Positions 13,291 through 35,410 of a DNA stretch of 35,410 nucleotides are shown here, piece after piece (position 1 is the stretch's first letter; the number at the start of each line of letters is the position of its first letter). The position numbers were made by a program, and so were the translations under genes. Origin of the DNA: Gammaproteobacteria bacterium (GTDB taxonomy: Bacteria; Pseudomonadota; Gammaproteobacteria; Thiohalospirales; Thiohalospiraceae); contig WFXP01000132.1 in NCBI GenBank assembly GCA_015490535.1, forward strand, positions 1 to 35,410. Reading direction: 5' to 3'. Below the pieces are notes generated by a model. The model ran no database searches, was not told the origin of the DNA, and was given only the letters and a program-made list of their open reading frames with translations.

Positions 13291-13544
13291 GGGTCTTCCC
13301 CAAATCGTGTGGGCAAAATGGTAAATCATCCTTGACAGGCGGAATGCGCGCCGGAAGATGGTCGGCATAAGGGGATTGGGGAGACTTTGGGATAGCCGGA
13401 GCAGTTGCTATTGGCGCAGGTGGTGGATATCCGCCACTCCCCAGCCAGAGAGCCCCAATCCCCTTCTGGTTACCGAGTATGTGGCGTGCATTCTGCCTGT
13501 CAAGGATGATTTACCATTTTGCCCACACGATTTGGGGAAGACCC
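13291..13544. mobile_element. MITE of the GGGTCTTCC family, copy 1 (complete, inverted)
   Basis: A 254-bp non-coding element lies between lptB and rpoN. Its outer 62 bases (13291-13352 and 13483-13544) are inverted repeats differing at only two positions. The ends are GGGTCTTCC and GGAAGACCC. The flanks are GCGAAATG (13283-13290) and ACGAAATG (13545-13552), an 8-bp target duplication with one mismatch. The central part is asymmetric and shows that this copy runs opposite to the copies at 21287 and 35260. It lacks the 16-bp segment that those copies carry in one arm. End sequence and 8-bp duplication recall the ISL3 family; that link is inferred. Confidence 0.85.
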
Positions 13545-21257: not shown

Positions 21258-21610
21258 CAGCACTCCGTCAAGGTGATAAATCAGGAAAGTCTTCCTCGAA
21301 TCGTGTGGGTAAAATGGTAAATCACCGCGTAGCGGCTCCGTCCTTGACAGGCGGAATGCACGCCACATACTCGGTAACCAGAAGGGGATTGGGGCTGTCT
21401 GGCTGGGGACAAGCGGATGTCCACCGCCTGCGCAAATTGCAACTGGTCCGGCTATCCCAAAGTGCCCCCAATCCCCTTCTGCCGACCATCCTCCGGCGTG
21501 CATTCCGCCTGTCAAGGATGATTTACCATTTTACCCACACGATTCGAGGAAGACCCAATCAGGATTCAGCATCCCTCCAATCCTGATTTATTGCCTTGAA
21601 AGAGCACTAG
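21258..21610. mobile_element. Composite element: outer CTAG-type repeat with a nested MITE
   Basis: The left end (CAGCACTCCGTCAAGG, 21258 on) is a decayed form and the right end (CTTGAAAGAGCACTAG, to 21610) a good form of the outer terminal repeat. Inside it, AATCAGGA occurs at 21279-21286 and again at 21557-21564, exactly flanking the GGGTCTTCC-type MITE. Without the insert the outer element would be about 75 bp. The right terminal repeat supplies the last codons and stop of phoR. Confidence 0.8.
21287..21556. mobile_element. MITE of the GGGTCTTCC family, copy 2 (nested)
   Basis: This 270-bp element has long inverted arms, the right end GGAAGACCC and a left end changed to AAGTCTTCC. It is flanked by a perfect 8-bp duplication, AATCAGGA. 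Its left arm carries 16 extra bases (CCGCGTAGCGGCTCCG) between the GTAAATCA and TCCTTGACAGG parts, which accounts exactly for its length difference from copy 1. Small frames inside it on both strands look spurious. Confidence 0.85.
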
Positions 21611-26583: not shown

Positions 26584-26800
26584 CGGTCTTGGCCAAATCG
26601 TGTGGGTAAAATGGCGAATCACCGCATGGCGGCTTCCTCCTTGCCAGGCGGAAGGCACGCCACTTACCCGGTAGCCGGAAGAGAATTGGGGCTGTATGGC
26701 TGGAGACCACCGGATATCCACCATCTGCGTGAATTGCCAGTGGCCCGGCCGCGCCAAAGCGTCCCCCAATCCCCTTGCGCCGACCATCTTCCGGAGCGCA
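26584..26800. repeat. MITE of the GGGTCTTCC family, copy 3 (decayed, right arm missing)
   Basis: The left end GGTCTTGGCCAAATCGTGTG, the arm with the 16-bp segment in changed form, and the centre AATTGGGGCTG...GTCCCCCAATCCCCTTG line up with copy 2. Similarity stops near 26795-26800, just after CCGACCATCTTCCGG. The right arm is replaced by unrelated sequence leading into the cytochrome gene. No outer CTAG-type terminus flanks it. Many substitutions show it is older than copies 1, 2 and 4. Confidence 0.75.
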
Positions 26801-26882
26801 CCAACCGGGGAAAATATGCTATATAAGGGGTATGGAGCCCGGAAACAGACGGTACGACCACTTCCGTAATTTAAGGAGCATA

Positions 26883-27995
26883 GTGGCATTGATCTGGCAA
26901 CGACATACCAAGACGCTCGATGGCAGAGCACTCTTCAAAAGGTCCTGTATCGTTGCCGGGATAACGGTGGCTATCCTCTCCACCACGTGGTGGAACAGCG
27001 CCCGTGGAGAGCCGGATGGCGGCAGGCTGTATGCCATACACTGCGCCGCATGTCACGGCGACAGGGGTGGCGGCGGAATCGGAGTTCCCCTCTCGCTACC
27101 GGACTTTCTCTCCAGCGTCACGGACGAGTATCTGTTCCTGACCATCCGCCACGGCCGACCGGGACGGATCATGCCGGCCTTCCGGCACCTCAGCGAGCAG
27201 CAGACATGGGCCATCGTTGGGCACATCCGCGCCTGGGCCAGCGGGGAAACAAGGCTCGCACCGGAGGGGACGCCCGGGGATCCCCAAAGGGGGCGCGACA
27301 TATTCGCCAGACACTGCGCCCGCTGCCACGGACCACTGGGCAAGGGCGGCACCGGCACCGGGGTGAACTTTACCCGGCTGCATGACCAGCCTGTCGTCGC
27401 CCCGGGTTTGAACAACCCGGGTTTCCTCGCCGCGGCTTCGGACCGGATCATAAGAACGACGCTGCTCAAGGGCAGACGCGGCACCCCCATGCAGTCTGCC
27501 GCAAAAATGGGGCTCAGCGAACAGGATGTGGACGATGTGGTCAGCTTTATACGCAGCTTTGAAAAATCTTTTGAGAACAGTGCAGTAGACCCCGAAGCGG
27601 ACGCAGATCCTGCGCTGATGGTCACCTCCCCCCTGCCCTTTGCCGAAACGGTGAAGAGGCTCAAGCAGGCCATATCCGCACGTCGGCAACGCATTATACG
27701 GGAACATCCGCTGGACGACGGGCTGACCGGTGCCAGAGAGAGCGGGCGCAGCAGACACCTGGCCATATATTTTGGCAACATCCGGCACCTAAACACCCTG
27801 CTGGCCATAGACCCGCGCATCGGGATCTTCCTTCCCAGCCGCATCACCGTCATGGAGGGGGAGGATGGCAAGGTAACGGTGACTGCCGTAAATCCACTCC
27901 GCTTCCGCAACCTGTTCAACAACGCCCGCCTGGAGCACACCTCCAGGGAGATGCATGAGCTCTACGTGGCGATTCTGGGGGAGATTTCGGAATGA
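26883..27995 (+). CDS. Diheme c-type cytochrome fused to a DUF302 domain
   Basis: The protein (about 370 aa) has one hydrophobic N-terminal segment (SCIVAGITVAILSTTWW), then two class-I cytochrome c domains with heme sites CAACH and CARCH and plausible distal Met in IMPAFRHL and TPMQSA. The C-terminal third matches DUF302: PLPFAETVKRLKQAI, HLAIYFGNIRHLNTLL and LPSRITVMEGEDGKVTVTAVNP. I chose GTG at 26883 because AAGGAG lies five bases before it; ATG at 26832 (after AGGGG) is an alternative. It probably sits in the periplasm as an electron carrier. The cytochrome-DUF302 fusion is unusual, and the following gene is a second DUF302 protein. Confidence 0.88.
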   Translation: MALIWQRHTKTLDGRALFKRSCIVAGITVAILSTTWWNSARGEPDGGRLYAIHCAACHGDRGGGGIGVPLSLPDFLSSVTDEYLFLTIRHGRPGRIMPAFRHLSEQQTWAIVGHIRAWASGETRLAPEGTPGDPQRGRDIFARHCARCHGPLGKGGTGTGVNFTRLHDQPVVAPGLNNPGFLAAASDRIIRTTLLKGRRGTPMQSAAKMGLSEQDVDDVVSFIRSFEKSFENSAVDPEADADPALMVTSPLPFAETVKRLKQAISARRQRIIREHPLDDGLTGARESGRSRHLAIYFGNIRHLNTLLAIDPRIGIFLPSRITVMEGEDGKVTVTAVNPLRFRNLFNNARLEHTSREMHELYVAILGEISE

Positions 27996-29138: not shown

Positions 29139-30284
29139 GTGCAAAGCTCTAGACTCCATCGAAAACTGCTGCTGGTGGCGCTGTTGCTGTCAGGTACCCT
29201 GCCGGGTTTCGCGGCGGCGTCCGGCTGGCCCATGTTCCTGGGCAATCCTTCCCACACGGCGGTTTCGCAAACCGCCATCTCTCCACCCCTCGAACAACGG
29301 TGGCGATTTGATACCGGGGGCGCCATCTACTCCTCCGCGGCAGTGGACGGCGAGCGCCTCTATTTCGCGTCTCTCCCGGGACGCGTCTATGCGCTCGCCA
29401 TAACCACCGGACAGCCGGTCTGGACGTTCGAGACCGATACCGAAATCAGCGCTTCTCCCGCTCTCTTCGAGGGGAGGATCTACATAGGCGCCAAAGGCGG
29501 ACAGTTCTACTGCCTGGACAGCGGCAACGGCGAGCCGGTCTGGACCATCGAAACCAAGGGCAAAATCACCGCATCGGCGGCGATCGACGACGGGGTGGTC
29601 TATTTTGCGTCTCACGACATGACGCTCTACGCCGCCCGCGCGAAGGATGGCAAGTTGCTCTGGAAGACCAGGCTGCCGGGCCATGCCGCGGCCAACGGCA
29701 TCTACTCCACCCCGGCCGTGGCGGACGGCATGGTGTACGTCGCGGAAAAATCCCACAACCTGTATGCGCTGGACGCGAGCAACGGCCAGATCATGTGGAA
29801 ATACCGTACCGACTCCGCCGTTTACTCCTCCCCCTCCGTCAGGAACGGGATGGTATTCATAGGAGGATATGATCGCCAGGTCCGCGCGCTGGACGCCAGG
29901 AGCGGCAAGCTGATCTGGAAGGCCCAGCTGGATGAGTGGATCTATGCAACCCCGGTTCCCTTCGGCGGCAACCTCTATGTGGGCAGCAAGGATGGCATGT
30001 TGAGCGCTTTCAACGCTCGTGACGGGGAGCTCGTATGGTCCCTCGACCTGCGCGGCACCATAAGTTCGACCATGGCGGTGGCGCGGGGTGGGATCGGCTA
30101 CGTGGGCAACGAGGACGGCGAGATATTCGCCATAAACCTGGAGAAGGGCCGGATCATCTGGAAAGAGATCCTGGCAGAGGATGGCTTCCACGCATCACCC
30201 GCGCTGGCCGGTGGAAAACTCTATATAGGCACCCTGAACGGATACCTCATCTCCTGGGGGAAGAATGGCGCAGAGAACAGATAA
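29139..30284 (+). CDS. Exported PQQ-type beta-propeller repeat protein
   Basis: The 381-aa protein has a signal peptide (LLLVALLLSGTLPGFAAA) and about seven tandem propeller blades of the pattern SSPAVADGMVYVAEKSHNLYALDASNGQIMWK, each with an Asp/Asn-Gly turn and a Trp near the blade end. It resembles BamB but lacks a lipobox Cys, and the operon context is cytochromes, so a scaffold or cofactor-free propeller in the periplasm or outside is more likely than outer-membrane assembly. I see no PQQ dehydrogenase active-site set. The start is GTG; the 3' end overlaps the next gene by 20 bases. Confidence 0.85.
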   Translation: MQSSRLHRKLLLVALLLSGTLPGFAAASGWPMFLGNPSHTAVSQTAISPPLEQRWRFDTGGAIYSSAAVDGERLYFASLPGRVYALAITTGQPVWTFETDTEISASPALFEGRIYIGAKGGQFYCLDSGNGEPVWTIETKGKITASAAIDDGVVYFASHDMTLYAARAKDGKLLWKTRLPGHAAANGIYSTPAVADGMVYVAEKSHNLYALDASNGQIMWKYRTDSAVYSSPSVRNGMVFIGGYDRQVRALDARSGKLIWKAQLDEWIYATPVPFGGNLYVGSKDGMLSAFNARDGELVWSLDLRGTISSTMAVARGGIGYVGNEDGEIFAINLEKGRIIWKEILAEDGFHASPALAGGKLYIGTLNGYLISWGKNGAENR

Positions 30285-31245
30285 CCGGTCCCTGGTATGG
30301 ATAGCTGCCCTGGCAGCGGTGCTCCTTGCACCGCTGCCGGCGGCCGACGACCAGTCACCCTCCTACCCGAACCCTCACTGGTCGGACTCGCCGGATGCCT
30401 GCCTGGAGTGTCACGACAAGGTCCCCAAACAGGGTGATCCCCTCTACCTGCGTTTCGGCGGCGACATCATGGAGCTGTGCAACCGCTGCCACGCAACCAT
30501 CTCCAAGGACAAATATATCCACGCCGCCGGAATGGTGCCGCCGACGCAGATGGTGGAGCGAATGCCCCGGGAGTTTCAGGAGGCGCTGGAGAGGGATCCG
30601 GAGGGGAGGATAACCTGCCGCGTCTGCCATGAGATCAAGTATCAGTGCCTGAGCAAGGAGTTCTACCGCCGCGCCGACAATCCCCTGTTCCACCGCGGCG
30701 CTCCCTACAGGAAACGAACCGATCTCTGCTACAACTGCCACAACAAGTCGGAGTACAAGGGCAAGCACAACCCTCACGACCAGATCAATGACGAGGGTGA
30801 GCTGATGACCGACGTCTGCACATATTGCCATGCCAAGCTTCCGGACCGCAGAAAGGCGCGGAGCATCGCGGACGTGAGTTTCGAATACGAGAAGCTGGAC
30901 ATGCTCTGCCTGCGCTGTCATACCGATGATGCCTACGCATACGGTTGTGCCACCGGTTACGAGGAGGATGGCCGCCCCATCTATCACGGAGACCGGCCGG
31001 ACGAGGAGATGCTGGCCAGGATCGATCAGCACACCAAGGAGAATATCCTGCCCCTGGAGCTGATTACCGGCAACATCTTCTGCGGCACCTGTCACAACCC
31101 GCACGAACTGGGTGTGCAGCGCCAGCACAAGGCGGACGTGGGAGCGGATGCCCACAAACGCCTCAGAATCAGCAAGAAGGATTCCCATCTCTGCCTTGGC
31201 TGTCATGACGAAAAGGACATCCGGAAATTCCAGCTTGGAGAGTAG
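30265..31245 (+). CDS. Octaheme c-type cytochrome
   Basis: After a signal peptide (VWIAALAAVLLAPLPAA) this 326-aa protein has eight CXXCH sites: CLECH (Cys46), CNRCH, CRVCH, CYNCH, CTYCH, CLRCH, CGTCH and CLGCH. Many His elsewhere can serve as distal ligands. There is no catalytic CXXCK site, so it does not look like a nitrite reductase, and the spacing does not match hydroxylamine oxidoreductase as far as I can judge. Two extra Cys lie in YQCLSKEF and YGCATGY. Between a propeller and an NHL gene and three bases before the latter, it probably moves electrons with the 24-heme protein. Confidence 0.92.
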   Translation: MAQRTDNRSLVWIAALAAVLLAPLPAADDQSPSYPNPHWSDSPDACLECHDKVPKQGDPLYLRFGGDIMELCNRCHATISKDKYIHAAGMVPPTQMVERMPREFQEALERDPEGRITCRVCHEIKYQCLSKEFYRRADNPLFHRGAPYRKRTDLCYNCHNKSEYKGKHNPHDQINDEGELMTDVCTYCHAKLPDRRKARSIADVSFEYEKLDMLCLRCHTDDAYAYGCATGYEEDGRPIYHGDRPDEEMLARIDQHTKENILPLELITGNIFCGTCHNPHELGVQRQHKADVGADAHKRLRISKKDSHLCLGCHDEKDIRKFQLGE

Positions 31246-31248
31246 CAG

Positions 31249-32250
31249 TTGAGCGTAGCCCCCAGCTTCCGGAACCGGCTGTTCCCCATCCAGAACAGGC
31301 CGAGACCGGGCTACCGAACCAACCTCCTCCTTCTTTTTCTGCTGCTGGTGGCCGCCGTACCGTTGCGGCCCGCGCTCGCCTTCTCCGGCAGCGAGCTTCT
31401 GCCCATCGAGCTACTGGCCACCATCGGAGGCAAGGGGGGTGACTCCAGGCTGCGCCAGCCGAGCGCGGTTCTGACGGCGAGAAACGGAAACATATTCGTG
31501 CTGGACGGGGCCGTCAACCGGGTCGCAGTGTTCTCGCCACGGGGCAGGTTCCTCTACGATTTCGGACAGGATCACCTGAACATGCCCCTGGGAATGGCCA
31601 TGGACGCCAGGGGACGGCTCTACGTCACCGATACCCGAAAGGGGCGCATCCAGCTGTTCACGTCCCAGGGCGAACACCTGAAGCAGATCGAACTTCCCGA
31701 AAGCAGCAAGGGGATCCCCACCGAACCGGTCGACCTGGCGCTGGACGAGCGACGCAGGCTCCTCTACGTCGTGGACAACCGGAACCACCGCCTTCTCATC
31801 CACGACCTGCGCAAGGGCACCGTAGTCAGGACGGTGGGCAAGATGGGCATGGAGGAGGGAGAATTCAGATGGCCCTTCTCCCTGACACTGGACGGGGACG
31901 GAGTGATCTATCTGGTGGACGTGATAAACACCACGGTCAGGACCATCGATCCCGCACACGACTGGGCGTTCCTGGACAATATTGGAAGCTGGGGGATCCA
32001 GAAAGGCGAGCTGTTCCGTCCCAAGGGTATCGCCATCGACTCGAAGGGGAGATTGCTGGTTTCCGACTCCTACCTTGGGGTGGTACAGATGTTCGACCGC
32101 CAGGGCAACTTCCTGTCCGTTCTGAGCGACAAGGACGGAACCATCCACCGCTTCACCACGCCCGTCCGGCTGTTCGTGGACCGCAGGGATCGGCTCTACG
32201 TGGTGGAGATGTTTGCCAACCGGATAAGCATATTCAGGATGGGCAGATGA
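31249..32250 (+). CDS. Exported NHL-repeat beta-propeller protein
   Basis: The 333-aa protein has an N-terminal hydrophobic leader (NLLLLFLLLVAAVPLRPALA) and about six NHL repeats: LRQPSAVLTARNGNIFVLDGAVNRVAVFS, MPLGMAMDARGRLYVTDTRKGRIQLF, LFRPKGIAIDSKGRLLVSDSYLGVVQMF and similar. NHL propellers usually bind proteins or polymers. The start is TTG with GGAGAG upstream. Its stop overlaps the start of the 24-heme cytochrome (ATGA), so the two are made together; a role in docking or assembling the big cytochrome is inferred. Confidence 0.88.
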   Translation: MSVAPSFRNRLFPIQNRPRPGYRTNLLLLFLLLVAAVPLRPALAFSGSELLPIELLATIGGKGGDSRLRQPSAVLTARNGNIFVLDGAVNRVAVFSPRGRFLYDFGQDHLNMPLGMAMDARGRLYVTDTRKGRIQLFTSQGEHLKQIELPESSKGIPTEPVDLALDERRRLLYVVDNRNHRLLIHDLRKGTVVRTVGKMGMEEGEFRWPFSLTLDGDGVIYLVDVINTTVRTIDPAHDWAFLDNIGSWGIQKGELFRPKGIAIDSKGRLLVSDSYLGVVQMFDRQGNFLSVLSDKDGTIHRFTTPVRLFVDRRDRLYVVEMFANRISIFRMGR

Positions 32251-35249
32251 GAAACGGCAGGGGTTGGTTCCGGTCCGTTCTGCCACTGCTGGCGATACTG
32301 CTGCTGCCGTTCCTGTCCGGCCTGGCCCAGGCCGCCGCCGACAGGCTGGAACGAAACTCGGCGCGGGAGTGCTCGATGTGCCACATACGCTGGGTGGACG
32401 AGTTCAAGACCGAGGGAACCCCGGATCTGCTCATCGACTATCCCCCCACCCGCCAGGTGGCCAACGAGATGATGTGCTACAGCTGCCATGACGGTTCGGT
32501 GGTGGACTCCCGCTGGAGGGTCTGGGAGACATCACGCCACAAGACGGGGGAAAAACCTTCCCACAAGATCACCGTGCCCGAAAACTATCCGCTGGACAGC
32601 AACGGCAACGTACAGTGCTATACCTGTCACTCGGCCCACGGCGTGGAGGGTGGTACGGACATGGCCACCGCCATATTCCTGCGCGAACCCAACGTCAACT
32701 CTTCCATGTGCCGCAAATGCCACCAGGGCAAGGACCGGGGCCCGGATGAAGGATCCCATCCTGTCGACGTGGAGTTCCCGAAGTTCCCCGAAAAGATCCT
32801 CCGCGCCGGAGGCAAGGCGGGAACCGGGAAAACCGTCATCTGTGAATCCTGTCATACCCCGCACGGCAGCACTGCGGAACATTTTCTGGTGGTTCCCAAC
32901 GAAGGCGAGGGCAGCCTGACCCACTCCATGCTGTGCGAAACCTGTCATACCGTATCGCCGGACATCAACAGCGAACAGGTACTGCGGCGCTTCTCACATC
33001 CGGTGGCCGTAAAACTGCCCCGGGAGGCGGAGCTTCCCGAGAGGTGGGACAACGGGGAAAAACCCTATCTCGGCAAGGGCGACACGGTGAACTGCCGCAC
33101 CTGCCACTCGCCCCACAACGGCACGCCAAAGAACCACCTGCTCACCACCAAAAAGAGGGGAGACGAGCTCTGCCTCACCTGCCATACGTCCAAGAAAAGA
33201 ATCTACGGGACCAGGCACGACATCGCCAAAAAGTTTCCGGAGAGCGAGAACGCGGACGGCGAGAAGGCCGCAGCGAAGGGCACCTGCAGAAGCTGTCACT
33301 TCATGCACAAGGGCTACGGGCCCAAGATGTGGGCGAGAAGGGGCGCCGCGGCGACGATGGAGGGGGTTTGCCTCTCCTGTCACTCGGAGGGCGGGATGGC
33401 CGAGGAGAAAACCACGGGCAGATACAGCCATCCGGTGGGAGTCAAGCCGCAGCGGATCAAGCAGGAAGGCGCGGCGCTCCCGCTCTTTACCGACAAGGGG
33501 AGAAGGGACCCGGAGGGGAAGATCTCCTGTGCCTCCTGTCACGACCCGCACCGCTGGGCGCCGGACAGTGACGATCGCGGCGCGGACAGCAAGGAGGGGG
33601 ACGTCAACAACAGTTTCCTGCGCAAGGCCGGCACTCCGGACGGAAAACTTTGCAAGAGCTGTCACGCGAGCAAGTGGTCGGTAATCGGCAGCAAGCACGA
33701 CATGGGCCTCATGGAACCGCACTCGAAGAACGCCAAGGGACAGACCATCGAGGAGTCCGGAGTTTGTGGAGCCTGCCACACGCCGCACAATGCCAAGGCG
33801 GAAAAACTGTGGGCGAGAAGCCCCAAGCATGGCGAGGACAGCATCGAACGGCTATGCACCTCGTGCCACTCCAAGGGACGCGAAGCGGAGCGCAAAACCA
33901 CCGGCGAAAACAGCCATCCATTGGGAGTCAGGCCGGACGGAAGGACCGCCAGAAAGAGCGGCCTGCCCTATTTCACCGAAAGCGGTGAGCGAGACCCGAA
34001 CGGCAACGTCAGCTGCGCCACCTGTCACGATGTCCACCGCTGGGAGCCCGGGGTGGCCGAGGGGCCAGGCAAGCGCAAGATCGAGGGAAACAGGTTCAAC
34101 AGCTTCCTGCGCAAGCCCTACGATGATACGGCAACGCTGTGCGCCTCCTGTCACCGGGAAAACGCCCTTGTTGTCGGCACCGATCATGACATGAACGTAA
34201 CCGGCCCCGGGAGCAGGAACCTGAACGGTGAAACGGTGGAGCAGTCAGGCGTATGCGGTGCATGTCACGCGGTGCACAACGCCTTCGGCAGCCTGCTCTG
34301 GGTGCGCGGCGTGGGATCCGGCGAAAACCGCAACGAGGCGCTGTGCAAGGGGTGTCATGCGCGCCGCAAGGTGGGATCCAAGAAGATCATCAGGGAACCA
34401 AGTCATCCCATGAACAAGGCGGTCTCCGATGCCCGTCCCACCCTGAGACGCGAAACCAGCGCGTTCTACGAACATGCCAGAAAGGATGGCAAGAGCACCG
34501 AACTGCCCCTGTTCAAACCGGATGGGAAGCGCTCCCGGGACGGGGACATCACCTGCCCCACCTGTCATAACGTCCACCGCTGGGATCCCGACAAATGGGC
34601 GAGGGGAAGCGGCCGGAAAATCGAAGGTGACGGCGGCAACAGCTTCCTGCGCAAATCCAATCTTCCCGATTCGGGGCTGTGTGCCACCTGCCACACCCGT
34701 AAGAGATTTGTGGCAGGGACGGATCATGACATGTCGGTTACCGCGCCGCAACAGAAGAACAGCCTGGGACAGACCGTGGCACAGAGCGGCGTGTGCAGCG
34801 CCTGCCACGAGCCCCACGGCTCAACCGCCGGTGGATACCTGCTCTGGGCCAGAAAACTGGGAGCGGGCAGTGACCTGCCCCAGGAGCAGGTGTGCCTGAG
34901 CTGCCACTCGCGCGGGGGGATCGCCGGCGACAAGGTGGTGACGGAGTTCGAACACCCCCGCAATGTAACCATCACGGAGCAGAACCATCCGGGACAGAAC
35001 TTCTACGCCCCTGTCTACAACAAAAAGGGCCGTAAGGTGGATGCGGGCCTGCTCTCCTGCCCCACCTGCCACAATCCACACATCTGGTCAGCCGCCAGAC
35101 CCGGGCCCGGCAAGGGCAAACCCGTGGAGGGCAACGTCAGAAACAGCTTTCTGCGGTTCAGAAGCCGAAACAACATCTGCCGCAACTGCCATGGACTGGA
35201 CAGCCTGGTCAGATACAAGTATTTCCACTCTAGTACTCTTTCAAGGTAA
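32247..35249 (+). CDS. 24-heme c-type cytochrome with four tandem tetraheme modules
   Basis: The 1000-aa protein has a signal peptide (VLPLLAILLLPFLSGLAQA) and 24 CXXCH sites from Cys42 to Cys978, many as CXXCHxxH (doubled-CXXCH type). Hemes 1-7 precede four homologous modules beginning at about residues 309, 469, 632 and 812, each with four hemes and shared marks such as HDM, SGVCGACH, SHPxGV, CHDVHRW and NSFLRK. Heme 24 ends the chain (ICRNCHGLD). Such size and regularity suit long-range electron transfer in the outer envelope or outside it. The ATG at 32247 is chosen since the leader begins there. The last residues and stop (STLSR) come from the outer CTAG-type repeat. Confidence 0.93.
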   Translation: MRNGRGWFRSVLPLLAILLLPFLSGLAQAAADRLERNSARECSMCHIRWVDEFKTEGTPDLLIDYPPTRQVANEMMCYSCHDGSVVDSRWRVWETSRHKTGEKPSHKITVPENYPLDSNGNVQCYTCHSAHGVEGGTDMATAIFLREPNVNSSMCRKCHQGKDRGPDEGSHPVDVEFPKFPEKILRAGGKAGTGKTVICESCHTPHGSTAEHFLVVPNEGEGSLTHSMLCETCHTVSPDINSEQVLRRFSHPVAVKLPREAELPERWDNGEKPYLGKGDTVNCRTCHSPHNGTPKNHLLTTKKRGDELCLTCHTSKKRIYGTRHDIAKKFPESENADGEKAAAKGTCRSCHFMHKGYGPKMWARRGAAATMEGVCLSCHSEGGMAEEKTTGRYSHPVGVKPQRIKQEGAALPLFTDKGRRDPEGKISCASCHDPHRWAPDSDDRGADSKEGDVNNSFLRKAGTPDGKLCKSCHASKWSVIGSKHDMGLMEPHSKNAKGQTIEESGVCGACHTPHNAKAEKLWARSPKHGEDSIERLCTSCHSKGREAERKTTGENSHPLGVRPDGRTARKSGLPYFTESGERDPNGNVSCATCHDVHRWEPGVAEGPGKRKIEGNRFNSFLRKPYDDTATLCASCHRENALVVGTDHDMNVTGPGSRNLNGETVEQSGVCGACHAVHNAFGSLLWVRGVGSGENRNEALCKGCHARRKVGSKKIIREPSHPMNKAVSDARPTLRRETSAFYEHARKDGKSTELPLFKPDGKRSRDGDITCPTCHNVHRWDPDKWARGSGRKIEGDGGNSFLRKSNLPDSGLCATCHTRKRFVAGTDHDMSVTAPQQKNSLGQTVAQSGVCSACHEPHGSTAGGYLLWARKLGAGSDLPQEQVCLSCHSRGGIAGDKVVTEFEHPRNVTITEQNHPGQNFYAPVYNKKGRKVDAGLLSCPTCHNPHIWSAARPGPGKGKPVEGNVRNSFLRFRSRNNICRNCHGLDSLVRYKYFHSSTLSR

Positions 35250-35259
35250 TAAATCAGGA
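35230..35259. repeat. Outer CTAG-type terminal repeat at the end of the 24-heme gene
   Basis: It begins CTAGTACTCTTTCAAGGTAA and continues to AATCAGGA (35252-35259), matching 23656 onwards and the complement of the right end at 21610. The cytochrome frame enters it and stops at TAA (35247-35249). Its partner terminus would lie beyond the window. Confidence 0.85.
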
Positions 35260-35410
35260 GGGTCTTCCTCAAATCGTGTGGGTAAAATGGCAAATCACCG
35301 CGTAGCGGCTCCGTCCTTGACAGGCAGAATGCACGCCACATAATCGGTAGCCAGAAGGGGATTGGGGCTGTCTGGGATGGGGAGTGGCGGATATCCACCA
35401 CCTGCGTCAA
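35260..35410. mobile_element. MITE of the GGGTCTTCC family, copy 4 (cut by window end)
   Basis: Starting GGGTCTTCC directly after AATCAGGA, it repeats the left arm of copy 2 including the 16-bp CCGCGTAGCGGCTCCG segment and the AAGGGGATTGGGG core. It has the same orientation and the same insertion site in the outer repeat as copy 2. The right half is outside the window. Confidence 0.85.

Follow-up and report, generated by a model that had tools for sequence, protein, structure and literature searches.

A 24-heme cytochrome from a Thiohalospiraceae bacterium, probably a single-chain wire of six fused OmcE-family tetraheme units

This locus raises the question of how a cytochrome with 24 CXXCH sites in a single chain is put together, and whether its tandem repeats could form one continuous heme wire. 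The gene lies at the end of the window, by which we mean the whole stretch of 35,410 nucleotides that was analysed (contig WFXP01000132.1), and the features that bear on the question are collected in Table 1. It likely starts at the ATG at 32247 rather than at the listed open reading frame start, 31869, as the former yields a signal peptide and a few-base overlap with the stop codon of the upstream NHL gene. All 24 CXXCH sites were counted in the 1000-residue translation, the number of residues per heme is 40.4, and inspection of the translation showed the signal peptide to lack a lipobox Cys. The contig ends 161 bases past the gene, within a copy of a dispersed repeat (35250-35410); further copies lie at approximately 13291-13544, 21277-21556 and 26585-26733, an inverted partner arm is found about 30 bases off, and at least 76 matches were listed in the 2.1 Mb genome, with 40 of 235 candidates scored.

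Table 1. Features of the window around the 24-heme cytochrome gene.
Feature	Position	Strand	Evidence or remark
Diheme cytochrome c fused to DUF302 domain	26775..27995	+	Pfam; link to the system uncertain
PQQ/BamB-like beta-propeller	29139..30284	+	Pfam
Multiheme (octaheme-family) cytochrome c	30265..31245	+	Pfam; 8 CXXCH in orthologues
NHL beta-propeller	31249..32250	+	Pfam NHL 1e-21; directly upstream, few-base overlap with 24-heme gene
24-heme cytochrome gene, 1000 aa	32247..35249	+	24 CXXCH; ATG 32247, stop 35249
Predicted signal peptide, aa 1-30	32247..32336	+	Read from translation; putative cleavage site
Unit 1, hemes 1-4, diverged	32340..32735	+	No leading His; Trp49 at heme 1 +7
Unit 2, hemes 5-8, diverged	32736..33197	+	hhalign vs units 3-6, E 1.3e-21
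Unit 3, hemes 9-12	33198..33677	+	
Unit 4, hemes 13-16	33678..34166	+	
Unit 5, hemes 17-20	34167..34706	+	~18-aa insertion between the second and third hemes of the unit
Unit 6, hemes 21-24	34707..35204	+	Last blocks of 18-, 20- and 24-heme relatives group in a single clade
His994 codon, conserved	35226..35228	+	At +16 of heme 24, which it likely caps as a ligand

An earlier note, made from the letters of the sequence, had described the hemes as 7 + 4x4 + 1, with four tandem tetraheme modules, and the first heme Cys codons that it gave for the modules (33171, 33651, 34140 and 34680) and for the terminal heme (35178) are all exact. Self-alignment confirmed that the four blocks resemble each other well beyond CXXCH; they are 33-44% identical with the C, C and H positions left out, and the global block-versus-block scores were 284-365 against means of 26-45 for shuffles in which the CXXCH positions were held fixed (z 14-20). 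Hemes 4-7 aligned weakly with the modules (25-28% identity, z 4-6). The marks said to recur in every module are less uniform: HDM and SGVCxACH are found only in modules 2-4, module 1 having HDI and KGTCRSCH; SHP holds for modules 1-3 but is EHP in module 4; and NSFLRK occurs three times, with NSFLRF once. At the DNA level the repeats are diverged and not recent.

The 7 + 4x4 + 1 layout itself proved to be an effect of register. When the chain was cut before each HD-type histidine (HDM, HDI or HP), six units of four hemes were obtained, of 132-180 aa, with hemes 1-4 and 5-8 also forming units of the same family (unit 1 against units 3-6, hhalign E 1.9e-15). In the nine-row orthologue alignment the 24 CXXCH sites are accompanied by exactly 24 other conserved histidines, the last of which is absent solely from one truncated row. 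From heme 2 on, there is one in-register His per heme, at +7, +15/16 or +20/21, in a fixed order (+21, +7, +16, +7, +21, +7, +15, +7, +20, +7 and so on), and the opening histidine of each unit falls 15-16 residues past the final heme Cys of the unit before it. Heme 1 has no dedicated distal His in any family, a Trp sitting at +7, and the mature chain has no His ahead of it; its ligand may be His297, invariant in the window's family only, or a residue supplied in trans, or the site may be an open one.

Among solved structures, OmcE 7tfs and 9yuq were the best matches of the unit profile. The order within the unit is shared with both: a leading HD or HN, CxxCHTPH followed by LW, CxxCH followed by (D/S)HP, CxxCHxxH followed by FLR, and LCxxCH. 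Two OmcE-like tetraheme genes are present in the bacterium's own genome (contigs C77 and C154), both stopping two residues past the last CXXCH, and the OmcE-like reference taken from this genome matched 7tfs (2.9e-32) and 9yuq (5e-25) over nearly its whole length. Against the OmcE-like family, the HD-first register gave an hhalign score of 116.5 (E 1.3e-18; the hhalign E-values are from direct comparisons of two profiles, and cytochromes with doubled CXXCH share a general relatedness) and aligned end to end, unit columns 1-163 against OmcE-like residues 28-224, the C-terminus. The a-, c- and d-first registers scored 97, 80 and 70, the maximum of 40 column shuffles with the heme residues kept was 41.5, and other multiheme cytochromes scored 67 (the operon octaheme), 43 (an 8-heme lipoprotein) and 39 (a hexaheme) against the OmcE-like profile. 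Unit 1 alone matched over part of its length only. Because the HD-first register aligns end to end, a unit corresponds to one filament subunit and a junction between units to the point at which subunits meet. In OmcS and OmcE filaments a histidine of the adjacent subunit ligates a heme (PMC9473688; PMC12954529) and, from this general statement and its position in the sequence, we infer that the HD histidine is an OmcE-type inter-subunit ligand, acting here within the chain.

OmcE-like segments also occur in other cytochromes. In the octaheme family (30265-31245 in the window, and orthologues) it is the C-terminal half that matches the OmcE-like profile (E 3.5e-9 for the score of 67), and two 11-heme cytochromes, L022 (own genome, G000, contig C78) and L069:16197-17948 (-), start with an OmcE-like KHNLS...CIFCH segment, and each would be an OmcE-type unit fused to further hemes.

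The reading we favour, and which we consider probable, is that the 24-heme protein consists of six OmcE-family tetraheme units joined covalently into a concatemer, forming a closed wire of fixed length that probably links a b561 module and an OmcE-type route. Unit homology, register, histidine pattern and conserved gene neighbours support it at the level of sequence; we infer the ligand assignments, the linear stacking of the hemes, the location and the direction of electron flow. An OmcE protein has one unit, ending just after heme 4, and a free N-terminal His that would ligate the neighbouring subunit, and its filament is built of separate subunits joined by a His of one that ligates a heme of its neighbour. 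In the 24-heme protein, by contrast, six such subunits would be fused head to tail, and each opening His could ligate the last heme of the previous unit in the same chain. The lack of a His before heme 1, together with His994 at heme 24, suggests a closed molecule: with ends that look capped, it should not polymerise but form one self-contained wire of 24 hemes. A continuous, wire-like heme chain is plausible by homology to OmcE filaments. The AlphaFold2 models (full length, 14 rows, pLDDT 41; two-block construct, 35 rows, pLDDT 44) were too poor for heme geometry or a fold search.

The neighbours of the gene point to extracellular electron transfer. In the window the order is PQQ/BamB-like propeller, octaheme-family cytochrome, NHL propeller and 24-heme cytochrome, and in two relatives (L015 and L016) genes for a hexaheme cytochrome, cytochrome b561 and a triheme cytochrome lie upstream of these conserved neighbours. 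The cluster of the one-contig genome G122 starts with an OmcE-like tetraheme gene, a propeller-like lipoprotein, a long ORF without hemes, barrel-like from its sequence, and an NHL-like lipoprotein, and continues with an 11-heme cytochrome that starts like OmcE, followed by octaheme, heptaheme, b561, triheme, NHL and 24-heme genes; Pfam gave nothing for a fragment of the barrel-like ORF that falls within the scanned stretch. A similar long ORF follows one OmcE-like gene in the own genome, and in L015 and L019 the large cytochrome gene has OmcE-like genes nearby. The window itself showed no barrel gene, the contig ending just past the 24-heme gene, and a dsrA search stayed below its cut-off. 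When the own genome was searched with a 60-aa piece of the L014 cytochrome b gene, a weak match (37%, contig C70) was all that turned up, so this partner may be missing from the assembly. Most probably, the quinone-linked b561 and the triheme or multiheme inner-membrane proteins exchange electrons with the 24-heme wire, which would bridge the way through, or out from, the periplasm to an outer-membrane route of the OmcE-filament type.

Several known systems resemble this one in part. The GSU1996/GSU0592-type dodecaheme cytochromes of Geobacter are single chains of repeated small triheme c7-type domains, whereas the repeat here is tetraheme, with His offsets of +7/+20/+7/+15, and no GSU1996 structure was recognised among the sequence matches. 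The decaheme wires MtrA and DmsE are distantly similar at the profile level (6r2q MtrA chain, E 1e-6; TIGR03508, E 3e-30), but they have 10 hemes and the TIGR03508 score of 105.5 bits lies below the cut-off of 192.2; the MtrB/PioB barrel (TIGR03509) had no match in the own genome, the control genomes being equally silent. An operon of SEEP-SRB1 encodes cytochromes of 16 and 26 hemes together with a six-bladed propeller and, as here, a large signal-peptide cytochrome adjoins a beta-propeller, although, compared by description rather than by sequence, the heme numbers differ and a PPIase is present (PMC5539420).

A further parallel is porin-cytochrome complex 3 (PCC3), with 21, 24 or 27 hemes in its periplasmic and 10-35 in its extracellular cytochromes (PMC10734462, PMC5566968). 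Like the 24-heme protein, PCC3 cytochromes are long and repeat-bearing and have a proposed wire role; they have been modelled as long and linear, with comparable heme numbers (PMC10734462, PMC5566968), and the 24-heme protein could be a generic repeat-rich wire of this type, in which length matters and kinship to OmcE does not. We regard this as unlikely: going by the published descriptions, PCC3 cytochromes have only 22-39 residues per heme (PMC5566968), the repeat found here is a specific unit of four hemes with end-to-end homology to OmcE-like proteins, and relatives have, as the partner in the membrane, a Pfam b561 beside NHL and triheme genes, not the reported porin and IMP set. None of the PCC3 partners (porin, extracellular and periplasmic cytochromes, five-helix IMP) was seen in the window up to the contig end. 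A periplasmic cytochrome that stores electrons as a capacitor, or serves as a redox enzyme, would accord with heme 1 having, in all families, no distal His of its own and so a possible open site, and storage has already been proposed for large multiheme cytochromes (PMC10734462), but the in-register His of all other hemes and the strong kinship to a filament subunit make such a role improbable. The protein's OmcE-family units, the OmcE-like genes in the own genome and near the gene in relatives, and a heme 1 that could be ligated in trans might suggest that it polymerises end to end, as an extracellular filament subunit in its own right. This is improbable, given that heme 1 has no His ahead of it, heme 24 comes with a +16 His and the operon in relatives sets the gene beside an inner-membrane module.

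Going by the titles of their records, the relatives of the 24-heme protein come mostly from marine and hydrothermal MAGs, and its full-length orthologues are 55-97% identical. The expectation that module number would vary between strains was not borne out: all seven other complete orthologues (L009-L012, L014, L015 and L017; seven MAGs, five in the window's genus) have 24 hemes at near-identical spacing, and an eighth (L013), cut at a contig end, has 23. In L016 (9977-12997) an in-frame stop splits the gene into two 12-heme halves, through either a real pseudogene or an assembly error. The record of L015 is labelled Candidatus Polarisedimenticolaceae (Acidobacteriota) and its 24-heme protein groups with Sedimenticola, reflecting transfer or mis-binning. 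Genome searches gave matches in 14 of 369 genomes of the class (E 1e-30) and in eight of the order's 12, each of them belonging to the window's genus, while the own genome was the only match among 398 in the phylum sample (E 1e-60); these searches partly re-find the orthologue MAGs, which were counted once. A plasmid search gave no match.

Heme number does differ across paralogues and deeper lineages, at 18, 20 and 24. A second 24-heme family is present in G094, G122 and G126, 18-heme forms also exist, all of those read in the genus having one layout, a Desulfobacteraceae contig carries 20- and 18-heme forms, and a Rokubacteria contig a 30-heme form. The own genome itself has an 18-heme paralogue on contig C113 (L021, 15934-18588, minus strand), with an NHL gene apparently adjoining.

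Growth by module duplication, as the earlier note had it, is upheld in that block alignments, unit profile matches and trees all support tandem duplication. In the block tree, each of the four repeat positions forms its own clade across the nine orthologues. In the unit tree, which is rough, with unsettled bootstrap and long branches, single clades spanning the families are formed by unit 1, by unit 2 and by the last unit (100/97, 100/99 and 96/86, respectively) and the middle units show no one-to-one pairing between families; length change therefore seems to be located in the middle. The 18-heme form reads 4+2+4+4+4 and, unit 2 being common to the other three groups, may most simply have arisen by deletion. 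For the two 24-heme families, separate origins are favoured, though not settled, by the trees of the N-terminus and of the modules. In topology tests using a fast LG+G4 search on 37 rows, the AU test rejected orthology of all four blocks, position by position, between these families (p 0.018; SH 0.067), but did not reject orthology of the first block alone.

No description of a concatemer of OmcE-type subunits was found in the open-access literature and, within that literature, it is the construction of a wire in this way that appears new, long wire cytochromes being already known. We suggest, more tentatively, that the protein may be an end-capped, single-chain nanowire in which the number of fused filament subunits serves as a molecular ruler spanning a gap of fixed width, for instance the periplasm, in a cell that also encodes a polymerising OmcE-like filament. 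The OmcE rise is 34 A per subunit (PMC12954529) and, if it is kept, this would be a natural nanowire of one defined length, of ~20 nm. If true, subunit fusion would be a single simple step linking periplasmic wire cytochromes to extracellular nanowires, and the natural 18-, 20- and 24-heme relatives would make the question of conduction against length a testable one.
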